Below, one piece after another: positions 3,576-22,559 of a stretch of DNA of 22,737 nucleotides. Source of the stretch: a virus. The number at the start of each line of letters is the position of its first letter. Position 1 is the first letter of the stretch. Location: the IMG/VR virus record IMGVR_UViG_3300037358_000021, positions 1 through 22,737 of that record. The stretch is one strand, 5' to 3'. Made by a program: the position numbers and the translations under genes. The notes beneath the pieces were generated by a model. The model was not told the origin of the DNA. It was given only the letters and a program-made list of their open reading frames with translations, and did not search any database.

Positions 3576-4244
3576 CTATTCCTTAGTCGGTTTCATTATG
3601 TTGAAAGTCTTAGCACCACGGTGGCCAATATTGGTAGAAAGATTTATATCACAATAAACATCGTAGCCTGCCTCAATCGCGCGAAAGCAGAAATATTCAT
3701 CCTCGGGCATAAGGCTTCCGGTGTCGTCAACTTCCATCATTGCTCTCGGAGGCTCGGCGAACCAAGGCTTCGTGAGTTTGCGAAATACATCCATCTTAAT
3801 AAGCATGAACGGCATGCCCAAAAGGCGCATCTTCACGGGGGGCGAAGGAATCTGGAGCCTGGAACCGTCTAACGTATCGCCAATCGCACTATCTTGTTCA
3901 TCATCGCGTTTAGAGGCCGTTGCTCCAACGATGTCAAGATTATGTGCAATGAGCACATCACCCGCCCAAGGGGGGAAGATCATGTCTGAATCGATGAACA
4001 AAATATGAGTCGCCGTTGTTTTAAGGGCGAGCTCAACTAAAAGATTCCGGTTAAATGCAATTCGACAACTGGACGTATTTATCATATTGCAAATATGATA
4101 CGAACCATTTTGACTCTTATGGTTCAAAAGGCTCATCACAAAATTAACGTTGACGAATTCGCCAGAAGGGAATACTACCGCTACACGGGGGATTTGATTT
4201 TCCGATGCAGCTGGGACAAGCGGTATTGTTTCAATCAACAACAC
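3576..4244 (-). CDS. GT-A glycosyltransferase-like protein, paralog of the next gene downstream
   Basis: 222 residues. The nominal start is GTG at 4244, but no convincing Shine-Dalgarno precedes it, and the paralog begins about 17 residues later, so the true start could be internal. The core shows FNRNLLVELALKTTATH, a DxD motif in ILFIDSDMIFPP near residue 82-93, MRLLGMPFMLIKMDVF, WFAEPPRAMM, PEDEYFCFRAIEAGYD and a C-terminal NIGHRGAKTF. These blocks align one for one with the gene at 2946-3572. The protein probably binds a nucleotide sugar through the DxD and a divalent metal. It lies 37 bases after the tandem virion-protein pair, which makes those proteins possible glycosylation targets, but that is inference from position only. 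Confidence 0.68.
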   Translation of the reverse strand: MLLIETIPLVPAASENQIPRVAVVFPSGEFVNVNFVMSLLNHKSQNGSYHICNMINTSSCRIAFNRNLLVELALKTTATHILFIDSDMIFPPWAGDVLIAHNLDIVGATASKRDDEQDSAIGDTLDGSRLQIPSPPVKMRLLGMPFMLIKMDVFRKLTKPWFAEPPRAMMEVDDTGSLMPEDEYFCFRAIEAGYDVYCDINLSTNIGHRGAKTFNIMKPTKE

Positions 4245-4281
4245 ATATTAGGCAGATTCAAAGAAAAATTAAATCACTTTC

Positions 4282-5007
4282 TTAATTTACGCCGAAGATG
4301 CTGTAATTATAAGTTGAAGTGTCATTAGCAGTTCCCACAACGGTGAAGTAGACACCAGCCGATATTGTAGTTAGGTGAGGCTGCGCACCGACCGCACTTT
4401 GGGCGGTGTTAAGACTAATCGCCACAGTATCAGTAATCGCAATTGTGGTATTAGTCACCGTTACGGCAGTTGCACCGTTCAGGTTGAATGTGCCTGCGCG
4501 GCCTGCGCCGGTTGCGCTTGCCTTTTGGACAAAGCCTGTGCCGACCAAAGTTTCAGTGATATTGCCGGCAAAGCTGCCAGCCACACCTACATCGCCCGTA
4601 AACCATGCACCGCCTTTGGCAGAATTAAATAAGGCACTTGCTCCCACTGGGAGAGCAAGGGCGGTGGATCCCGCAACGCCGTTAATTGTATCCGAGCTAC
4701 CCTGTGCTCCATAAATGGATAAAGAATTTGCGCCATTATTTATAACTATCGTAAATTGATAGGGAACATTTGGACCTCCCGTAGAAAGCGGAAGATTAAC
4801 TCCCGTGCTGGCAGTCACCGTGTCAACTTCATTATAAACAGAATTTAACTGAGTGGCCGTTGCCTGGGTTGTGCCTGCGGCCACAATTCCATAAGTTGAA
4901 GAAGAATTATTCATGTTATAAATGGAACTGGCAATCTGTGCGGCATCAGCAAGACGAAATGAGGGATCGAGCTTAATGAGTGGATTTGGCTTAGTTGTGG
5001 CAACCAT
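4282..5007 (-). CDS. Beta-rich virion protein, tandem paralog (decoration or fibre type)
   Basis: 241 residues, ATG with GGAG 9 bases upstream. Composition is rich in Ala, Gly, Ser, Thr and Asn with few charged residues, typical of extended beta-structured phage surface proteins. It shares long blocks with the gene directly upstream: GIVAAGTTQATATQLNS near residue 39, ASTGVNLP near 67, a GNITET segment near 148, a TNTT.AITD strand and a terminal ISAGVYFTVVGTA...YNY..GVN. The two genes are one base apart. Neither has a known catalytic motif. Position between the gp4-like adaptor and gp10-like hub suggests a head decoration or tail component. I cannot assign a precise role. Confidence 0.6.
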   Translation of the reverse strand: MVATTKPNPLIKLDPSFRLADAAQIASSIYNMNNSSSTYGIVAAGTTQATATQLNSVYNEVDTVTASTGVNLPLSTGGPNVPYQFTIVINNGANSLSIYGAQGSSDTINGVAGSTALALPVGASALFNSAKGGAWFTGDVGVAGSFAGNITETLVGTGFVQKASATGAGRAGTFNLNGATAVTVTNTTIAITDTVAISLNTAQSAVGAQPHLTTISAGVYFTVVGTANDTSTYNYSIFGVN

Positions 5008-7276: not shown

Positions 7277-8875
7277 CTAGATGGCATCCGCGATTGCGAC
7301 TGCCCATTCCGGTCTCACGTAGAGATAACCGTATAAAACATCAAGGCGGGTAATCAATTGATCAGTACCTACGGTATAATCCGTGATCATCCTCATCGAG
7401 ATGTTGTCGAAGGATTCGCGTGCACCTTCAACAATGCCCTGCTGCGGCAGAACGAGATCCGCCGTAGCCATCGTGACTGCTTCCGGAGTATAGGCGATAT
7501 TCTTGCGGAATATCGAACTTGCCGGAGTCGCCAGAAGGATTGTGGCACCGTTGACGGGGCTGGAGTCGACCGTCTGATACTGCACCTGCGGACCACCGGC
7601 GACGCCCGTCGAAGACGGAACGATAGCCGGGTAGATCGAAAGTGAAGTGGCATTGGTCGCAGCGGCAGCGGTAACTACGAACTGGCGAAGCTGACCAGTC
7701 GACTGCTTAGTAATGCGATTTACTGCATTCACGTTTGCAATCGTGATGATATCTCCCAGGGTAAGTGTCCCAGTGATAGCATTAGTCGTCAGCGTAAGGC
7801 CGGTCTGACCCGCGCCGTTGACGGTTCCAGCGGTAAACGTGCCAGTCGTGTGTTTCAACACGGTCTGATCCATCATCCACTCGAAACCAATCGCCTGCTG
7901 CATCGTACCCGTAGTGTACTGACGGGAGATGTCGCTGATCGGGTTAAGCAGCCCGCTCAGAACGCCCACAGTGCGCGCCTGGGTATACGGATCCTGAACG
8001 ATCTTACGACGTCCAGTCGGAGCAGAATTCACATCCAGCAACGCACCGGCAGTAAGGAAGGTCGACAAAATCGGGGAGATAATGTTACCATTAGCATCCG
8101 TGTTGCTGACCAAGTTACACACGCCGCCATCCACACCGCTCATGATGTTGTAAGCAATAGCGCCTGCGAGGTTGTTGATGCAAGGTGCGAGAATCCGTTC
8201 GGAGTAATCATCAAGACTCATCGTCCTGTCAACAGAACTGAACGAAACGTCGACACCCTGCTGCGTGGCGACAACCAAAGTTGTTGACTGCTCACTAGTA
8301 TCTTGGATTTGCGCAGCTGCACCTGTGCGAACGGTAAAGTCGTTGGGCAGACGGACACGAAGCTGTGTGCCGATCTTAGCTCCGACCTTAGCAAAAGAAT
8401 CATCGTCAATTTTTTCAAAAAGTTTCGTTAAAACTTTTTCGCTACCTAGCTGCTGCATATTTCTATGCAGATAAGACTATATCATAATCATTTCTGATTT
8501 TGCGTGCTTCGGATCACTTGATCCTACTCCCACAAGGGGATAGTCGTTGAACCTTTTCCATTTCAGGAACTCGGATGCTGATTGCCCAATACCTATTATT
8601 TTCAAACATTCACGCTTGGCCTTTTGGCCTACGTTGTAGTTAATAAGTCTCTAAGGGGTTTCCAGCAGTTCTCGCAATTTAACAACAACTTGATGACCTG
8701 CTAAGTCCTTGTTATATAACAAAATTGTTGATCTATATTCTGAATAAATGCATTCACTTTTTAATTAAATTCATAAAATATAGATAGTAAACACCAATGC
8801 CTAGTATATAGTGTTTTTCCAGAGTCTGACCGCTTCTCTGGTAATCATGTTTATGGTCAAGATTGAATTTGCCAT
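7277..8875 (-). CDS. Major capsid (coat) protein, P22 gp5-like, split by a group I intron
   Basis: Exon 1 is 8875-8810: ATG with AAAGGA 8 bases upstream, encoding MANSILTINMITREAVRLWK plus Asn-Thr, and then hits TAG three codons later if unspliced. Exon 2 begins at about 8449 (or 8441) and ends at 7277. The spliced product is about 409-412 residues. Exon 2 starts with FEKIDDDSFAKVGAKIG, then VRLPNDFTVRTGAAAQIQD, TQQGVDVSFSS and LDDYSERILAP, the block order I know from P22-type coat proteins. Homologs of this type begin MANxLLTIxMITREALRxL, exactly what exon 1 supplies and exon 2 lacks. An ATG at 8458 in the exon 2 frame lies inside the intron P9 hairpin and has no Shine-Dalgarno, so I reject it as the start. 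Function: HK97-fold shell subunit assembled on the scaffold encoded upstream. Confidence 0.9.
8450..8809 (-). ncRNA. Group I self-splicing intron (IA-like) inside the capsid gene
   Basis: On the minus strand the core elements occur in order: P at 8680-8665 (AAATTGCGAGAACTGC), Q at 8586-8570 (GGCAATCAGCATCCGAG), R at 8553-8538 (GGTTCAACGACTATCC) and S at 8484-8472 (ATGATATAGTCTT). R and S pair as P7 (ACTAT/ATAGT), and P and Q can pair as P4 (ATTGC/GCAAT). P1 is exon AAACACT with intron GGTGTTT, seven pairs ending in the conserved U-G. P2 is ATCTATATT/AATATAGAT. Two small hairpins lie between R and S, one with a GAAA loop, as in subgroup IA. P9 (8470-8453) is a 7-bp stem with a GAAA loop. The 5' site follows U8810. 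The 3' site is either after G8450 (in frame with U8810) or after G8442, which gives better P9.0, P10 and homolog length but needs cleavage after C8811. There is no ORF inside. Confidence 0.9.
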
Positions 8876-9009
8876 TGTGGCATTCCTTTGAATTGTTAAT
8901 GAAAGTTGGAATGAACCATTAGCAGGAATTTATTAGAAGAGCAGCTAAGTAGTTTTTGTTTAGTACCTATCTCTAAACGCTTAACGGTAATCATGAAGGA
9001 TAAAATACA

Positions 9010-9900
9010 ATGCCTCAAGTCATAGACAGTGATGAATATAATGTTGCTGGTGTGTACACTGTAACACAAAAAGCCTCTGGTCGAACATATGTTGGAGAAG
9101 CATTCAACATAAGAGAAAGATGGATGAATGGACATATCGGTTGTCTTAATGACAACAGACATGGCAATCGCTTCCTACAACGCGCCTGGAACAAGTATGG
9201 CCCAGATGCATTTGAATTCAAAATATTTACAGTTGTTGAAAATACTGAAAATTTATCCAAATATCTTTTTAAGAAAAAATTAAAATGGCATGAAAATGAA
9301 GTTCTTAAACTTTTTCCTAAAAATTATAATCTGGAAATTCCAGGAGAAAATGGCTATGTTATTCCAGGACCACGTGCCAAAAGAATGATGAAGAAAGCTG
9401 CTAAGAGAGAACGCAATACAGAGATAGGTAGGGCAAGAATGAAAAGAGTTCGTCTAGAAGCTATGAAAAACCCAATAGCAGTGGCACGCCATAAGAAAGC
9501 TACAAAAGAGGCGTGGCAAAATCCAGAAATTAAAGCTGCCAGGGTAGCCGCCTATAATACTCCAGAAGGTAAAAAGAATCGTGCTAGTGGGGCGGCGCTA
9601 GGATGGATTAAACGAAAAGAAAAACTCGCTAATGATCCTGAATTCGCGGCCAGACATAAGGAGAGTAGAGCGAAGGCAAACAAAAAAATTAAAGAACTCT
9701 ACAATACCCCTGAACGCAAAAATATGCTTTCTAAACAAGCAGACGAAACTTGGGCAGTTCCTGGAAGGAAAGGAAAAGTCACAGAATCTCTAGAAGAGTA
9801 TTATTCTGATCCTAAAAATAGAACACGGCATTCTAAGATAATGCTTGAACATTTTGAAAAGAAAAAATCTAGGAAACTTTCCATCCCGGGAGATCTTTAA
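9010..9900 (+). CDS. GIY-YIG homing endonuclease, free-standing, opposite strand to capsid
   Basis: 296 residues, ATG with AAGGA 9 bases upstream. The N-terminal GIY-YIG nuclease domain shows GVYTV at residues 14-18, YVG at 27-29 and the catalytic-type arginine R37 eight residues later, as in I-TevI. A WNKYGPDAFEF segment near 60-70, the candidate metal-binding glutamate in KWHENEVLKLF and the NYNLEIPGENGY segment complete the domain. Residues of about 150-280 hold about six diverged repeats with an N/D-x-P-E/x...A...W pattern (for example NTPEGKKNRASGAALGW and NTPERKNMLSKQADETW), probably DNA-binding modules like NUMOD3. It is the only convincing plus-strand gene, AT-richer than its neighbours, which suggests transfer. 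It starts 134 bases from capsid exon 1, divergently, and its 3' end overlaps the next minus gene by 32 bases. Confidence 0.85.
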   Translation: MPQVIDSDEYNVAGVYTVTQKASGRTYVGEAFNIRERWMNGHIGCLNDNRHGNRFLQRAWNKYGPDAFEFKIFTVVENTENLSKYLFKKKLKWHENEVLKLFPKNYNLEIPGENGYVIPGPRAKRMMKKAAKRERNTEIGRARMKRVRLEAMKNPIAVARHKKATKEAWQNPEIKAARVAAYNTPEGKKNRASGAALGWIKRKEKLANDPEFAARHKESRAKANKKIKELYNTPERKNMLSKQADETWAVPGRKGKVTESLEEYYSDPKNRTRHSKIMLEHFEKKKSRKLSIPGDL

Positions 9901-10150
9901 ATTCAATTTCATCAAGAGATTTTCTGTCTCTTACAATTAAGCTCATTTTAATTTTTAATGCCTTTAGATCTTTGACAACCTTGGCTGCCATACCTATCGG
10001 AACATCCCAATCGGCATCTCTATTGGGCTTTTCTCCCAACATACTTCCACAACCATTCATCCATTTAAATGGAACCGTACCACGAATCTTCTTATCTTCG
10101 GGACTTCCAGGTCGAAATGGGTAGTGTGCGTAAATCGTAACTTTCTTCAT
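9869..10150 (-). CDS. Unknown small phage protein
   Basis: 93 residues, ATG with a strong GGGAGG Shine-Dalgarno about 5 bases upstream. Visible features are KKVTIYAHYPFRPGSPEDKK at the start, a FKWMNGCGSML segment near 28-38, and a basic helix KVVKDLKALKIKMSLIVRD near 57-75. I do not recognise the family. It lies between the tRNA genes and the capsid region. Its last 32 bases overlap the end of the plus-strand homing endonuclease tail to tail, so one of the two reading frames may have been extended when the endonuclease arrived. Confidence 0.6.
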   Translation of the reverse strand: MKKVTIYAHYPFRPGSPEDKKIRGTVPFKWMNGCGSMLGEKPNRDADWDVPIGMAAKVVKDLKALKIKMSLIVRDRKSLDEIEFKDLPGWKVS

Positions 10151-10217: not shown

Positions 10218-10292
10218 TGGTAGCCGAGGATCGAATTGCACGATCGACCTTCTGGTTATGAGCCAGACGAGATACTACTTCTCCACTCGGCA
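10218..10292 (-). tRNA. tRNA-Met (anticodon CAT), CCA encoded
   Basis: A full 75-base cloverleaf fits: acceptor TGCCGAG/CTCGGCT (six pairs; the first position is T opposite T), D stem GAGA/TCTC, anticodon stem TCTGG/CCAGA with loop CTCATAA, T stem GATCG/CGATC with loop TGCAATT, then A73 and genomic CCA. Oddities: the D loop is short and lacks the usual GG, and position 55 of the T loop is G in place of T. If the host modifies C34 to lysidine it would read Ile codons; the sequence alone does not decide. Confidence 0.8.
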
Positions 10293-10303
10293 ATAATATA
10301 TTC

Positions 10304-10378
10304 TGGTTCCCCCTCCTGGAATCGAACCAACTGCTTCTGCATTCCGAGTGCAGCTTTCTACCAATGAAGTACACCCCG
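10304..10378 (-). tRNA. tRNA-Pro(CGG)-like element with a non-pairing acceptor stem
   Basis: All internal spacings fit a 75-base tRNA: T8 A9, D arm CTTC/GAAA with an ATTGGTA loop, a perfect anticodon stem CTGCA/TGCAG with loop CTCGGAA, T loop TTCGATT, A73 and CCA. However, the 5' acceptor strand CGGGGTG cannot pair with the 3' strand AGGGGGA, and the T stem GTTGG/CCAGG has a mismatched outer pair. The 5' strand looks like that of a normal tRNA-Pro, the 3' strand like another tRNA, so this may be a chimera left by recombination between tRNA genes, or a pseudogene. Confidence 0.45.
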
Positions 10379-10453
10379 AAAGGGCGTAGCTACTTGGTCG
10401 AGGTCGAATATTATCAGATTCCATTTTCATAATTTCTATATAGCGTTTAACGA

Positions 10454-10484
10454 AGGGCAGAACAATCATGTTCTATCACGCCCT
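10454..10484 (-). other. Stem-loop overlapping the scaffold stop codon
   Basis: AGGGC/GCCCT forms an outer stem and GAACA/TGTTC an inner stem with a 4-base loop. The structure begins within the scaffold stop region. There is no long U tract on either side, so transcript stabilisation or tRNA-operon processing is as likely as termination. The remaining bases up to 10379 hold no gene that I can see. Confidence 0.35.
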
Positions 10485-11420
10485 CTTATACCGATTCCTT
10501 TTTTCTTCCAACTGACGCTGACGTTCAGTGACCCAATCGCTCATCTTTGTGGCTGAGTCAGTGAGATCCGGAATGCCCGCTTTCGACGCACCACCAGCGA
10601 CAGGAATCACCGGAGCCGGAGCCTGAGAAACAGGAGCCGGAGGGGGCGCGGGCGGCGCATTAAGTGCAGCTTCTACACGCGCTAATTCCATTGCTCTCTT
10701 GACGGGAGTCATTTTAACAAGTTTCTCAGCTTCTTCAAAGTTCTGACCGAGATGATGGAGGATCTTTGAGGGATTTTTAAGTTCGACTACGGTTTCCAGA
10801 AATTCTGAAGATACGTTTTTACCTAATGCGCCGACGAGGTTAAGGTTCTTAATCGCCTCATCCCATGACTGAACGCCGTAGTCTTTTTTGCCAACCTCGA
10901 CAATTTCATTGCAAGTTTTATTAAACTCATTTGCCTGGGCGATCAGGATTGCTTTTTCCGCTGCGCGTTTTTCAATTTCCGCTTCCGTCACTTCCGTTGT
11001 GCTCATCGGAGGCGTAGATCCATTTGTCCCAGGAGCGCCGGAGGCTTTGGTCTCAAGTTGCTTGAGCAATTCAGCAGTGCGAGCTTCAGCAGCTTTTAAC
11101 GCTGCATCTTTTTGATCAGCCGTGCGCTCAGCTTCTAAACGGCGATAGGTTAATTCATTTATGCGCTTTTGGACATTGTCCACTTTGGGCTTTTCGCCAG
11201 CCGCAGCCGGTGGCGTCTCCGCAGTCGTCGTTGGTGGCGTACCATCTCCGGATGTATTACCTTCTGTCGTCGCTGCTGCTCCAGTTCCGGAGGTCGCAGA
11301 TATCGATCCATCTGCATTGACGACAACGCCAACCGTAGCGGAGCCATCAGAATTAGTAGAAGCCACCGGCGAAGCAACTGTGGGCGACGGCGTACCGGGA
11401 TCGACAACGGGATCAGTCAT
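10476..11420 (-). CDS. Capsid scaffolding protein
   Basis: 314 residues from ATG at 11420, chosen because GGAG lies 9 bases upstream. A low-complexity Thr/Ala/Pro/Gly-rich N-terminus (about 1-75) is followed by a long charged helix (VQKRINELTYRRLEAERTAD and onward to about 125), a helical middle (about 145-245) and an Ala/Pro linker (about 250-275). The C-terminus, DWVTERQRQLEEKRNRYKRA, is strongly basic and helical, like the coat-binding helix-turn-helix of P22 gp8-type scaffolds. Length, composition and position between portal and coat all fit. Scaffold directs shell assembly and then leaves the procapsid. The leader carries the 25-base hairpin repeat (11442-11466). I see no protease motif. 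Confidence 0.8.
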   Translation of the reverse strand: MTDPVVDPGTPSPTVASPVASTNSDGSATVGVVVNADGSISATSGTGAAATTEGNTSGDGTPPTTTAETPPAAAGEKPKVDNVQKRINELTYRRLEAERTADQKDAALKAAEARTAELLKQLETKASGAPGTNGSTPPMSTTEVTEAEIEKRAAEKAILIAQANEFNKTCNEIVEVGKKDYGVQSWDEAIKNLNLVGALGKNVSSEFLETVVELKNPSKILHHLGQNFEEAEKLVKMTPVKRAMELARVEAALNAPPAPPPAPVSQAPAPVIPVAGGASKAGIPDLTDSATKMSDWVTERQRQLEEKRNRYKRA

Positions 11421-11441
11421 AGAATAATACTCCAAAAGAAT

Positions 11442-21920: not shown

Positions 21921-22559
21921 TTAGGCACTCAAAATTCCTCTTCGCTTATCCCACCAAAGTTGAACGGCAATCTTATTGTTAGCCTTACGCTCAGGAGTAT
22001 GCTTCACCCCTGCGAGTTTTGCACTTATACTTTTCTTCTTTTCTTCAGAACAAGGCTGCCCCATTAAAGCAGCACTAATCTTCGCCTTTGTTTCTTCTTT
22101 ACAAGGACAACCCTTATGAACTAAACTTAATTTTAAAAGAGTTTCCGGAGATGCTTTCTTCCCTTTTCTTGCCCTCACTGAATTAGCAATACATTGGGGA
22201 GAAGGTTTTCTGCCTTTGAGCGTTCTTCCTACTTTTTCAGCAACACTTTTTGTCGACATGGGGCTAACTTCACCGCCATTTGTAATATTATAGCCATATC
22301 GTCGATCTTGCGTCCTGTACTTAGCAATCGCGGCTATCTCCAAATTAGCAATATAGGATCTTTCCCCTGCAACAAGAATTTCTAGCTTAACATTTTCTGC
22401 ACCGTATTTTCGAATCGCATTATAGACAGAAATTTTATATTTTCCAGAAGAAACTTTACAGTGTGCTCTAAATCTTCCCTTTGGATCATTGCTTATTCCA
22501 AAATACAATTTTCCATTGGGAAACACTAATCGGTATAGCCAACAGAGCTTTATTATCAC
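21921..22559 (-). CDS. GIY-YIG homing endonuclease with NUMOD3-type repeats
   Basis: 212 residues. GTG start at 22559 overlaps the upstream stop as GTGA, so it relies on translational coupling. The nuclease domain reads WLYRLVFPNGKLYFG at residues 7-21 with arginine R29 eight residues after the YFG glycine, AIRKYGAENVKLEIL near 49-63, a glutamate in NLEIAAIAKYRT, and YGYNITNGGE. Residues of about 110-195 hold repeated NUMOD3-like units (GRKPSPQCIANSVRARKGKK, then GQPCSEEKKKSISAKLAGVK and HTPERKANNKI), which bind DNA. No intron signature was seen around it, so it appears free-standing. It differs from the plus-strand GIY-YIG gene in domain order and repeats, pointing to separate arrival. Confidence 0.85.
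   Translation of the reverse strand: MIIKLCWLYRLVFPNGKLYFGISNDPKGRFRAHCKVSSGKYKISVYNAIRKYGAENVKLEILVAGERSYIANLEIAAIAKYRTQDRRYGYNITNGGEVSPMSTKSVAEKVGRTLKGRKPSPQCIANSVRARKGKKASPETLLKLSLVHKGCPCKEETKAKISAALMGQPCSEEKKKSISAKLAGVKHTPERKANNKIAVQLWWDKRRGILSA

Follow-up and report, generated by a model that had tools for sequence, protein, structure and literature searches.

The term collaborative homing, as it is defined in the relevant sections of PMC3984707, PMC2988022 and PMC10448857, refers to the pairing of an ORF-less intron with an adjacent free-standing endonuclease whose target is the intron site, a site that the intron protects. The cases treated in those sections of PMC10448857 are T3, other T7-like phages and a cyanophage, and endonuclease turnover is offered there as an alternative origin of such pairs. 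In the cyanophage psbA case and in the T3/T7-like case, an ORF-less group I intron lies beside a free-standing endonuclease (portions of PMC3984707 and PMC10448857); the psbA enzyme, F-CphI, is placed by a passage of PMC6083498 in a family other than GIY-YIG. A different sort of interruption is found in T4 gene 60, where a 50-nt insert is bypassed by the ribosome. This insert is possibly a degenerate group I intron, according to the part of PMC5009743 concerned with it, and its neighbour, by an account resting in part on a section of PMC2988022, is the mobA endonuclease. Finally, intron splicing in capsid and tail genes is mentioned for mycobacteriophages of cluster J in the brief description given in PMC3706429.

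Here we describe a P22-type coat gene that shares features with all of these systems. With the cyanophage and T3/T7-like cases it has in common the ORF-less group I intron next to a free-standing endonuclease gene; with the cluster J phages, as far as that brief description allows the likening, an intron in a phage capsid gene. It differs from the psbA/F-CphI and T3/T7-like pairs in that the interrupted gene encodes the coat protein, the endonuclease is of the GIY-YIG type and divergent, many endonuclease-bearing relatives lack introns, and a cut at the intron site is putative. Within the open-access literature we recognised no description of this arrangement in P22-like coat genes, nor of core-less intron remnants of the kind reported below. 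The newest part of the finding is one such element, 55 nt long and reminiscent of the gene 60 insert.

The window, that is the whole stretch analysed, is a virus record of 22,737 bases from IMG/VR carrying P22-like portal, terminase, scaffold and coat genes, all on the minus strand (Table 1). The gene that hosts the interruptions belongs to the P22-type coat family (Pfam PF11651, E 1e-31), and the endonuclease gene occupies the interval between scaffold and coat. An earlier note on this DNA had proposed that an ORF-less group I intron in the coat gene and a divergent GIY-YIG gene 134 bases upstream of exon 1 constitute a collaborative homing pair. The intron, its host gene and its strand are borne out by the profile matches (RF00028, 64.2 bits; PF11651), and the position of the endonuclease ORF (9010-9900) and the length of the spacer were correctly given, as was the end of exon 1 at 8810, where the 5' junction reads AAACACT and the peptide WKNT. 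The sequence beyond 8810 is nevertheless not one intron, since a coding stretch at 8754-8724 splits it in two; the second interruption had been overlooked. The hot spot in the coat gene, with two interruptions and an adjacent endonuclease, is thus real and richer than had been described.

Table 1. Features of the coat locus, in window coordinates.
Feature	Coordinates	Strand	Remarks
Coat exon 3	7277..8406	-	remainder of P22-like major coat protein
ORF-less group I intron, 317 nt	8407..8723	-	within Tyr codon of Q-Y-DDSFA; has P9, P9.1, P9.2
Coat exon 2, 31 nt	8724..8754	-	NAFIQNIDQQ + first base of Tyr codon
Core-less element, 55 nt	8755..8809	-	stop codon TAG; P1-like stem AAACACU/GGUGUUU
12-nt internal guide-like sequence	8789..8800	-	GCATTGGTGTTT; same 12-mer in L002
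Coat exon 1	8810..8875	-	MANSILTINMITREAVRLWKNT; start at 8875
Spacer, coat start to endonuclease start	8876..9009		134 bases
Free-standing GIY-YIG homing endonuclease gene, 296 aa	9010..9900	+	divergent to coat gene
Head scaffolding protein gene	10476..11435	-	phrog_8865, E 6e-20

The stretch 8754-8724 reads AATGCATTTATTCAGAATATAGATCAACAAT, and the peptide it encodes matches the same place in uninterrupted relatives, for example WKNTNQFIQHIDMQYDDSF. Because this peptide is present in genes that have no interruption, we recognise two interruptions rather than one, of 55 nt (8809-8755) and 317 nt (8723-8407). When 8875-8810, 8754-8724 and 8406-7277 are joined, the product is a full-length coat protein of 408 aa that aligns with its relatives without gaps. 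Three other readings were rejected. A single intron running from 8809 to the end of the Rfam match at 8453 would have exon 2 inside it and the P9.1 and P9.2 hairpins inside or beyond it; the in-frame junctions 8453/8452 and 8426/8425 give coat N-termini of odd length that cannot be aligned with relatives, whereas the three-exon reading aligns; and joining exon 1 straight to exon 3 breaks the frame.

The nearest relative among the matches listed, L002 (coat identity 90%), has the same two interruptions, sized 85 and 289 nt; because the two are sisters sharing both interruptions, they represent one event. Comparison of their codons gives 12 identical, 10 synonymous and 0 nonsynonymous in exon 1, and 3, 4 and 0, respectively, in the last seven full codons of exon 2, against 173, 171 and 32 in exon 3. 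With 14 synonymous changes and no nonsynonymous one in the comparable codons of exons 1 and 2, purifying selection therefore acts on the protein encoded by the short exons. We take this selection, the anatomy of the gene and its reading frame as demonstrated. It is improbable that the coat gene is defective in both records, whether as a dead element, a pseudogene or an assembly artefact. Such decay would be in keeping with exon 2 of L002, which is one base short as assembled, so that splicing would leave the coat reading frame broken, and with the 55-nt element, into which a ribozyme core cannot fit; but the layout is common to two different virus records, neither of them yielded a second coat gene, and the short exons have changed at synonymous positions exclusively, set beside 171 and 32 in exon 3. 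The missing base in L002 may be a sequence error.

The 317-nt intron contains no endonuclease ORF. Its RF00028 match (gathering threshold 50 bits, E 2e-14, positions 1-253) spans the whole conserved core from P3 to P9. In exon 2, CAACAAT is the pairing partner of the guide GTTGTTG at 8689-8683, and the junctions (CAACAAT/ ... AATTG/AC, slashes marking the intron boundaries) follow the group I rule, with the exon-terminal U paired to a guide G and a G as the last base of the intron. The equivalent in L002 is CAACAGT with GCTGTTG, a compensatory change; the length of the window's guide pairing, taken alone, was matched by 169 of 5000 shuffles and is hence weak evidence. Further introns were available for alignment. 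In coat codon 8, L002 carries an extra ORF-less group I intron (4288-4608), with a 14-nt guide that pairs across both exons (equalled by 3 of 5000 shuffles), and L168 has one at the same site. In an alignment of six introns (one from the window, two each from L002 and L168, one from L172), 25 of the 43 predicted pairs had changed on both sides. The P9.1 and P9.2 hairpins (the labels P9, P9.1 and P9.2 are our own) covary among these six and both lie beyond the Rfam end at 8453; the covariation of P9, P9.1 and P9.2 places the 3' end of the intron beyond that point too. The intron would excise itself, from 8723 to 8407, by group I splicing.

The shorter interruption has a U.G at its 5' junction and a G as its last base; its length is not divisible by three, and the in-frame stop comes two codons past exon 1. 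The guide-like sequence GCATTGGTGTTT within it has an uninterrupted pairing partner across the junction, made up of 7 nt in exon 1 and 5 in exon 2; this run of 12 was equalled by only 3 of 5000 shuffles of the element. In L002, the 85-nt counterpart differs outside the shared 12-mer, and its junction pairing is 11 long (13 of 5000 shuffles equal). The element therefore offers a guide to both exons and a terminal G, and it fails as a group I intron in its catalytic core: there is no room for one in 55 nt, and the whole record gives a single RF00028 match. Judged on these group I junction features, it looks like an intron relic with its guide still readable. It may be what is left of a second group I intron that kept guide and junctions as its ribozyme core was lost, and production of coat protein would still require that it be excised or passed over.

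How this might be achieved can be envisioned in two ways. The element could persist in the RNA as a programmed ribosomal bypass insert. The gene 60 insert, as described in the parts of the literature cited above, is likewise short, non-triplet and stop-containing, with a junction stem-loop and an adjacent free-standing endonuclease, and the correspondence extends to length (55 versus 50 nt), to the location of the stem-loop at the upstream junction and to the early stop. Yet no matched pair of take-off and landing codons restores WKNT-NAF. In the window, use of the pairs AAA-AAA, AAC-AAT and ATA-ATA, or of the wobble pairs, costs or alters residues; the sole pair found in L002, AAC-AAT with a late landing, would skip most of exon 2. 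Moreover, the loop bases GCATT, on which pairing to the downstream exon depends, are kept in L002, and a bypass hairpin would have no need of that. The 12-nt guide to both exons, the group I junction bases and a complete group I intron 31 nt further on also set the element apart from gene 60, as does the want of a usable codon pair, and we regard bypass as unlikely. The other way, which we advance tentatively and with some doubt, is that the relic is a core-less mini-intron cut out by the catalytic core of the intron 31 nt downstream, one ribozyme thus serving two interruptions. If true, this would be a parasite-of-a-parasite intron and a natural halfway form linking complete introns to bypass inserts of the T4 type, kept in place by the adjacent homing endonuclease; removal by a neighbouring ribozyme would mean that splicing may outlast the loss of an intron's own core. 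Of the whole locus, the 55-nt element is the part most deserving of experiment.

The divergent ORF is recognised as a GIY-YIG endonuclease by Pfam (PF01541, 24.4 bits against a cut-off of 22.6), by a PHROG homing endonuclease family (E 1.5e-15) and by the I-TevI structures 1mk0 and 1ln0 of the PDB (E 7e-15 and 1e-14). Its residues R37, E95 and N107 align with the catalytic R27, E75 and N90 of I-TevI; the nuclease domain and the catalytic Arg, Glu and Asn are in place. The domain is the same as that of I-TevI, and the free-standing placement is that of the T4 endonucleases treated in a section of PMC2988022; in contrast to both, the C-terminal part of the window enzyme matched no known DNA-binding domain of Pfam. 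A promoter scan found no sigma-70-like site in the 134-base spacer, and the region's site count was below that of shuffles. In the endonuclease tree, the enzymes of the window, L002 and L081 are united in one clade (support 93/82), within which L002 groups with L081 (99/91); the window enzyme sits on a long branch, so its placement is less sure. All three genes are divergent and lie in the scaffold-coat interval.

Several neighbouring features may be recorded here. The 3' end of the endonuclease gene is overlapped by 32 bases by a 93-aa ORF (9869-10150, minus strand) for which Pfam and PHROG gave no family match. The gap between scaffold and endonuclease holds a tRNA-Met (10218-10292, minus strand), adjoined by a tRNA-like sequence (10300-10385, minus strand) that ARAGORN did not call; in L002, six tRNAs stand directly upstream of the scaffold gene. 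Near the end of the record (21921-22559, minus strand) lies another GIY-YIG ORF, which carries a NUMOD3 motif; its alignment with ORF 9010-9900 was no better than E 0.2. At the edge of contig L235 (109-855), where the sequence ends before any upstream neighbour gene, stands an endonuclease with 63% identity to the L081 enzyme.

To place the locus among its relatives, we tabulated at least 130 IMG/VR coat loci together with two genome contigs, the duplicates L001, L076, L160, L236 and L234 having been left out beforehand. The counts below refer to 120 loci, namely the window and 119 of 130 coat loci among the matches listed, in a list compiled by hand; eleven were set aside for want of a visible scaffold gene upstream, and near-identical contigs were counted separately. 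L081 and L140 came from the endonuclease search, and so added intronless endonuclease-bearing loci to the count. The endonuclease screen covered GIY-YIG proteins (by a purpose-built profile) and HNH relatives of the L172 protein (by phmmer), and L225 was counted among the loci with neither free-standing endonuclease nor ORF-less intron. Other searches added little. A search of the genome collection with the coat protein gave 2 loci, and the screens applied revealed no intron or endonuclease at the corresponding place in either; the endonuclease alone matched 32 IMG/VR stretches, with 0 relatives by tblastn. The wide form of a DNA pattern of exon 1 plus guide occurred in at least 119 stretches, with no coat gene in the 80 loci listed, and a pattern of the intron core matched L002 alone. 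A first-stem pattern with a 10-base loop was discarded as chance because none of its 22 loci had a coat or endonuclease match.

Genes for GIY-YIG enzymes are present between scaffold and coat in the window, L002, L081, L140 and L171 (divergent) and in L032 and L183 (same strand), and genes for HNH_3 enzymes in L168, L172, L176 and L173 (same strand). ORF-less coat introns occur in the window, L002, L168 (which has two) and L172, that is in 4 of 11 endonuclease-bearing loci and in 0 of the 109 others (Fisher 4e-5, for the 120 loci among the matches listed). When loci were collapsed by hand to clades from the tree, the figures became 2/8 versus 0/109 (p = 0.004). In the coat tree, the window and L002 are sisters, beside L081, which has the endonuclease, and L159, which has none (support 0.74), while L168, L172 and L176 belong to another clade (support 1.0); two distinct coat clades therefore show the association, one with GIY-YIG and the other with the unrelated HNH_3 enzymes, and we consider it demonstrated. 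The insertion sites, numbered by coding nucleotide, are 23 (L002, L168), 66 (the 55-nt element), 73 (L172), 90 (L168) and 97 (window, L002), five sites spanning about 75 nt. Association and clustering fit an endonuclease-linked spread of the introns.

The same survey also tempers the proposal of the earlier note. Its pairing of an ORF-less intron with an adjacent free-standing endonuclease is what the window contains, and joint occurrence in relatives, which it had named as a check, holds in one direction: among the 120 loci counted, ORF-less coat introns are found solely beside free-standing endonucleases. In the other direction it does not, as the coat gene is uninterrupted in 7 of the 11 endonuclease-bearing loci, and the independent inheritance that was to speak against the pair is in this respect partly observed. 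The relative L081 is particularly instructive. Its endonuclease, of the same clade as the window's, is encoded at 3980-4684, in the spacer beside an uninterrupted coat gene, and the last codons of the gene are ancestral spacer sequence, kept in the endonuclease-free sister L159 about 90 nt before the coat ATG. The coat starts of L081 and L159 are alike at 124 of 150 nt, with 22-23 of 24 nt matching at insertion sites 2-5 and 18 of 24 at site 1. An L081 enzyme cutting at sites 2-5 would therefore cut its own genome, which argues against those targets in that relative. Because of this match and of the seven uninterrupted loci, we make the weaker claim for the endonuclease as the driving force.

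These observations lend weight to an alternative, which we rate as a serious possibility though not a probable one, namely that the locus is a shared hot spot without collaboration: the endonuclease would home only to its own empty spacer, the introns would arrive separately, at the one conserved coat 5' end that attracts them all, and the linkage would be physical only. The intronless majority of endonuclease-bearing loci, the spacer position and ancestral 3' end of the L081 gene beside an intact coat gene, and the presence of endonucleases of several lineages in the same spacer are all as this account would have them. It does not readily explain why ORF-less coat introns are confined, among the matches listed, to loci with an endonuclease, or why the association recurs with an unrelated enzyme in a second clade; and at a distance of about 0.2 kb, the introns would in any case be likely to be co-converted when a break in the spacer is repaired.

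Co-mobilisation is plausible in the following form. The 5' end of the coat gene in these podovirus-like phages would be a target that accumulates ORF-less group I introns, and the scaffold-coat spacer a settling place for free-standing homing endonucleases. The GIY-YIG enzyme would cut endonuclease-free coat regions at or near the locus, and recombinational repair would then carry over both the endonuclease gene and, next to it, the interrupted coat 5' end, whose insertion sites lie 199 and 285 bases away from where the endonuclease gene starts. Were the cut made at the intron site, this would be collaborative homing in the strict sense; were it made in the spacer, co-conversion would link the elements loosely, without strict collaboration. 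The activity of the endonuclease, its cut site, splicing and the handling of the 55-nt element we infer, and to the proposal as a whole, comprising endonuclease-linked spread, a self-splicing intron and a 55-nt intron relic, we assign a probability of roughly one half.

A single gene family displays a series of stages in one process: an empty coat gene, a coat gene with an endonuclease beside it, ORF-less introns next to endonucleases of two unrelated families, a coat intron seemingly containing an endonuclease ORF, and a core-less relic in a gene under purifying selection. The last stage but one is represented by L225, a distant relative with an HNH-like ORF, named by eye, between two sub-threshold matches to an intron in the coat gene; it suggests that something like both of the states implied by the earlier note, which had seen in the locus an intermediate preceding entry of the endonuclease into the intron, exists in this family. 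With several stages at hand in one gene family, the origin of mobile introns and of inserts of the gene 60 type becomes testable, and synthetic RNA and uninterrupted alleles would provide the material. A further peculiarity of these coat genes concerns L039, L042 and L158 (Dyella jiangningensis SBZ 3-12), which have early in-frame stops at positions conserved in relatives, one of them aligned with the Gln of DRQY; stop-codon recoding and repeated decay are both possible explanations.
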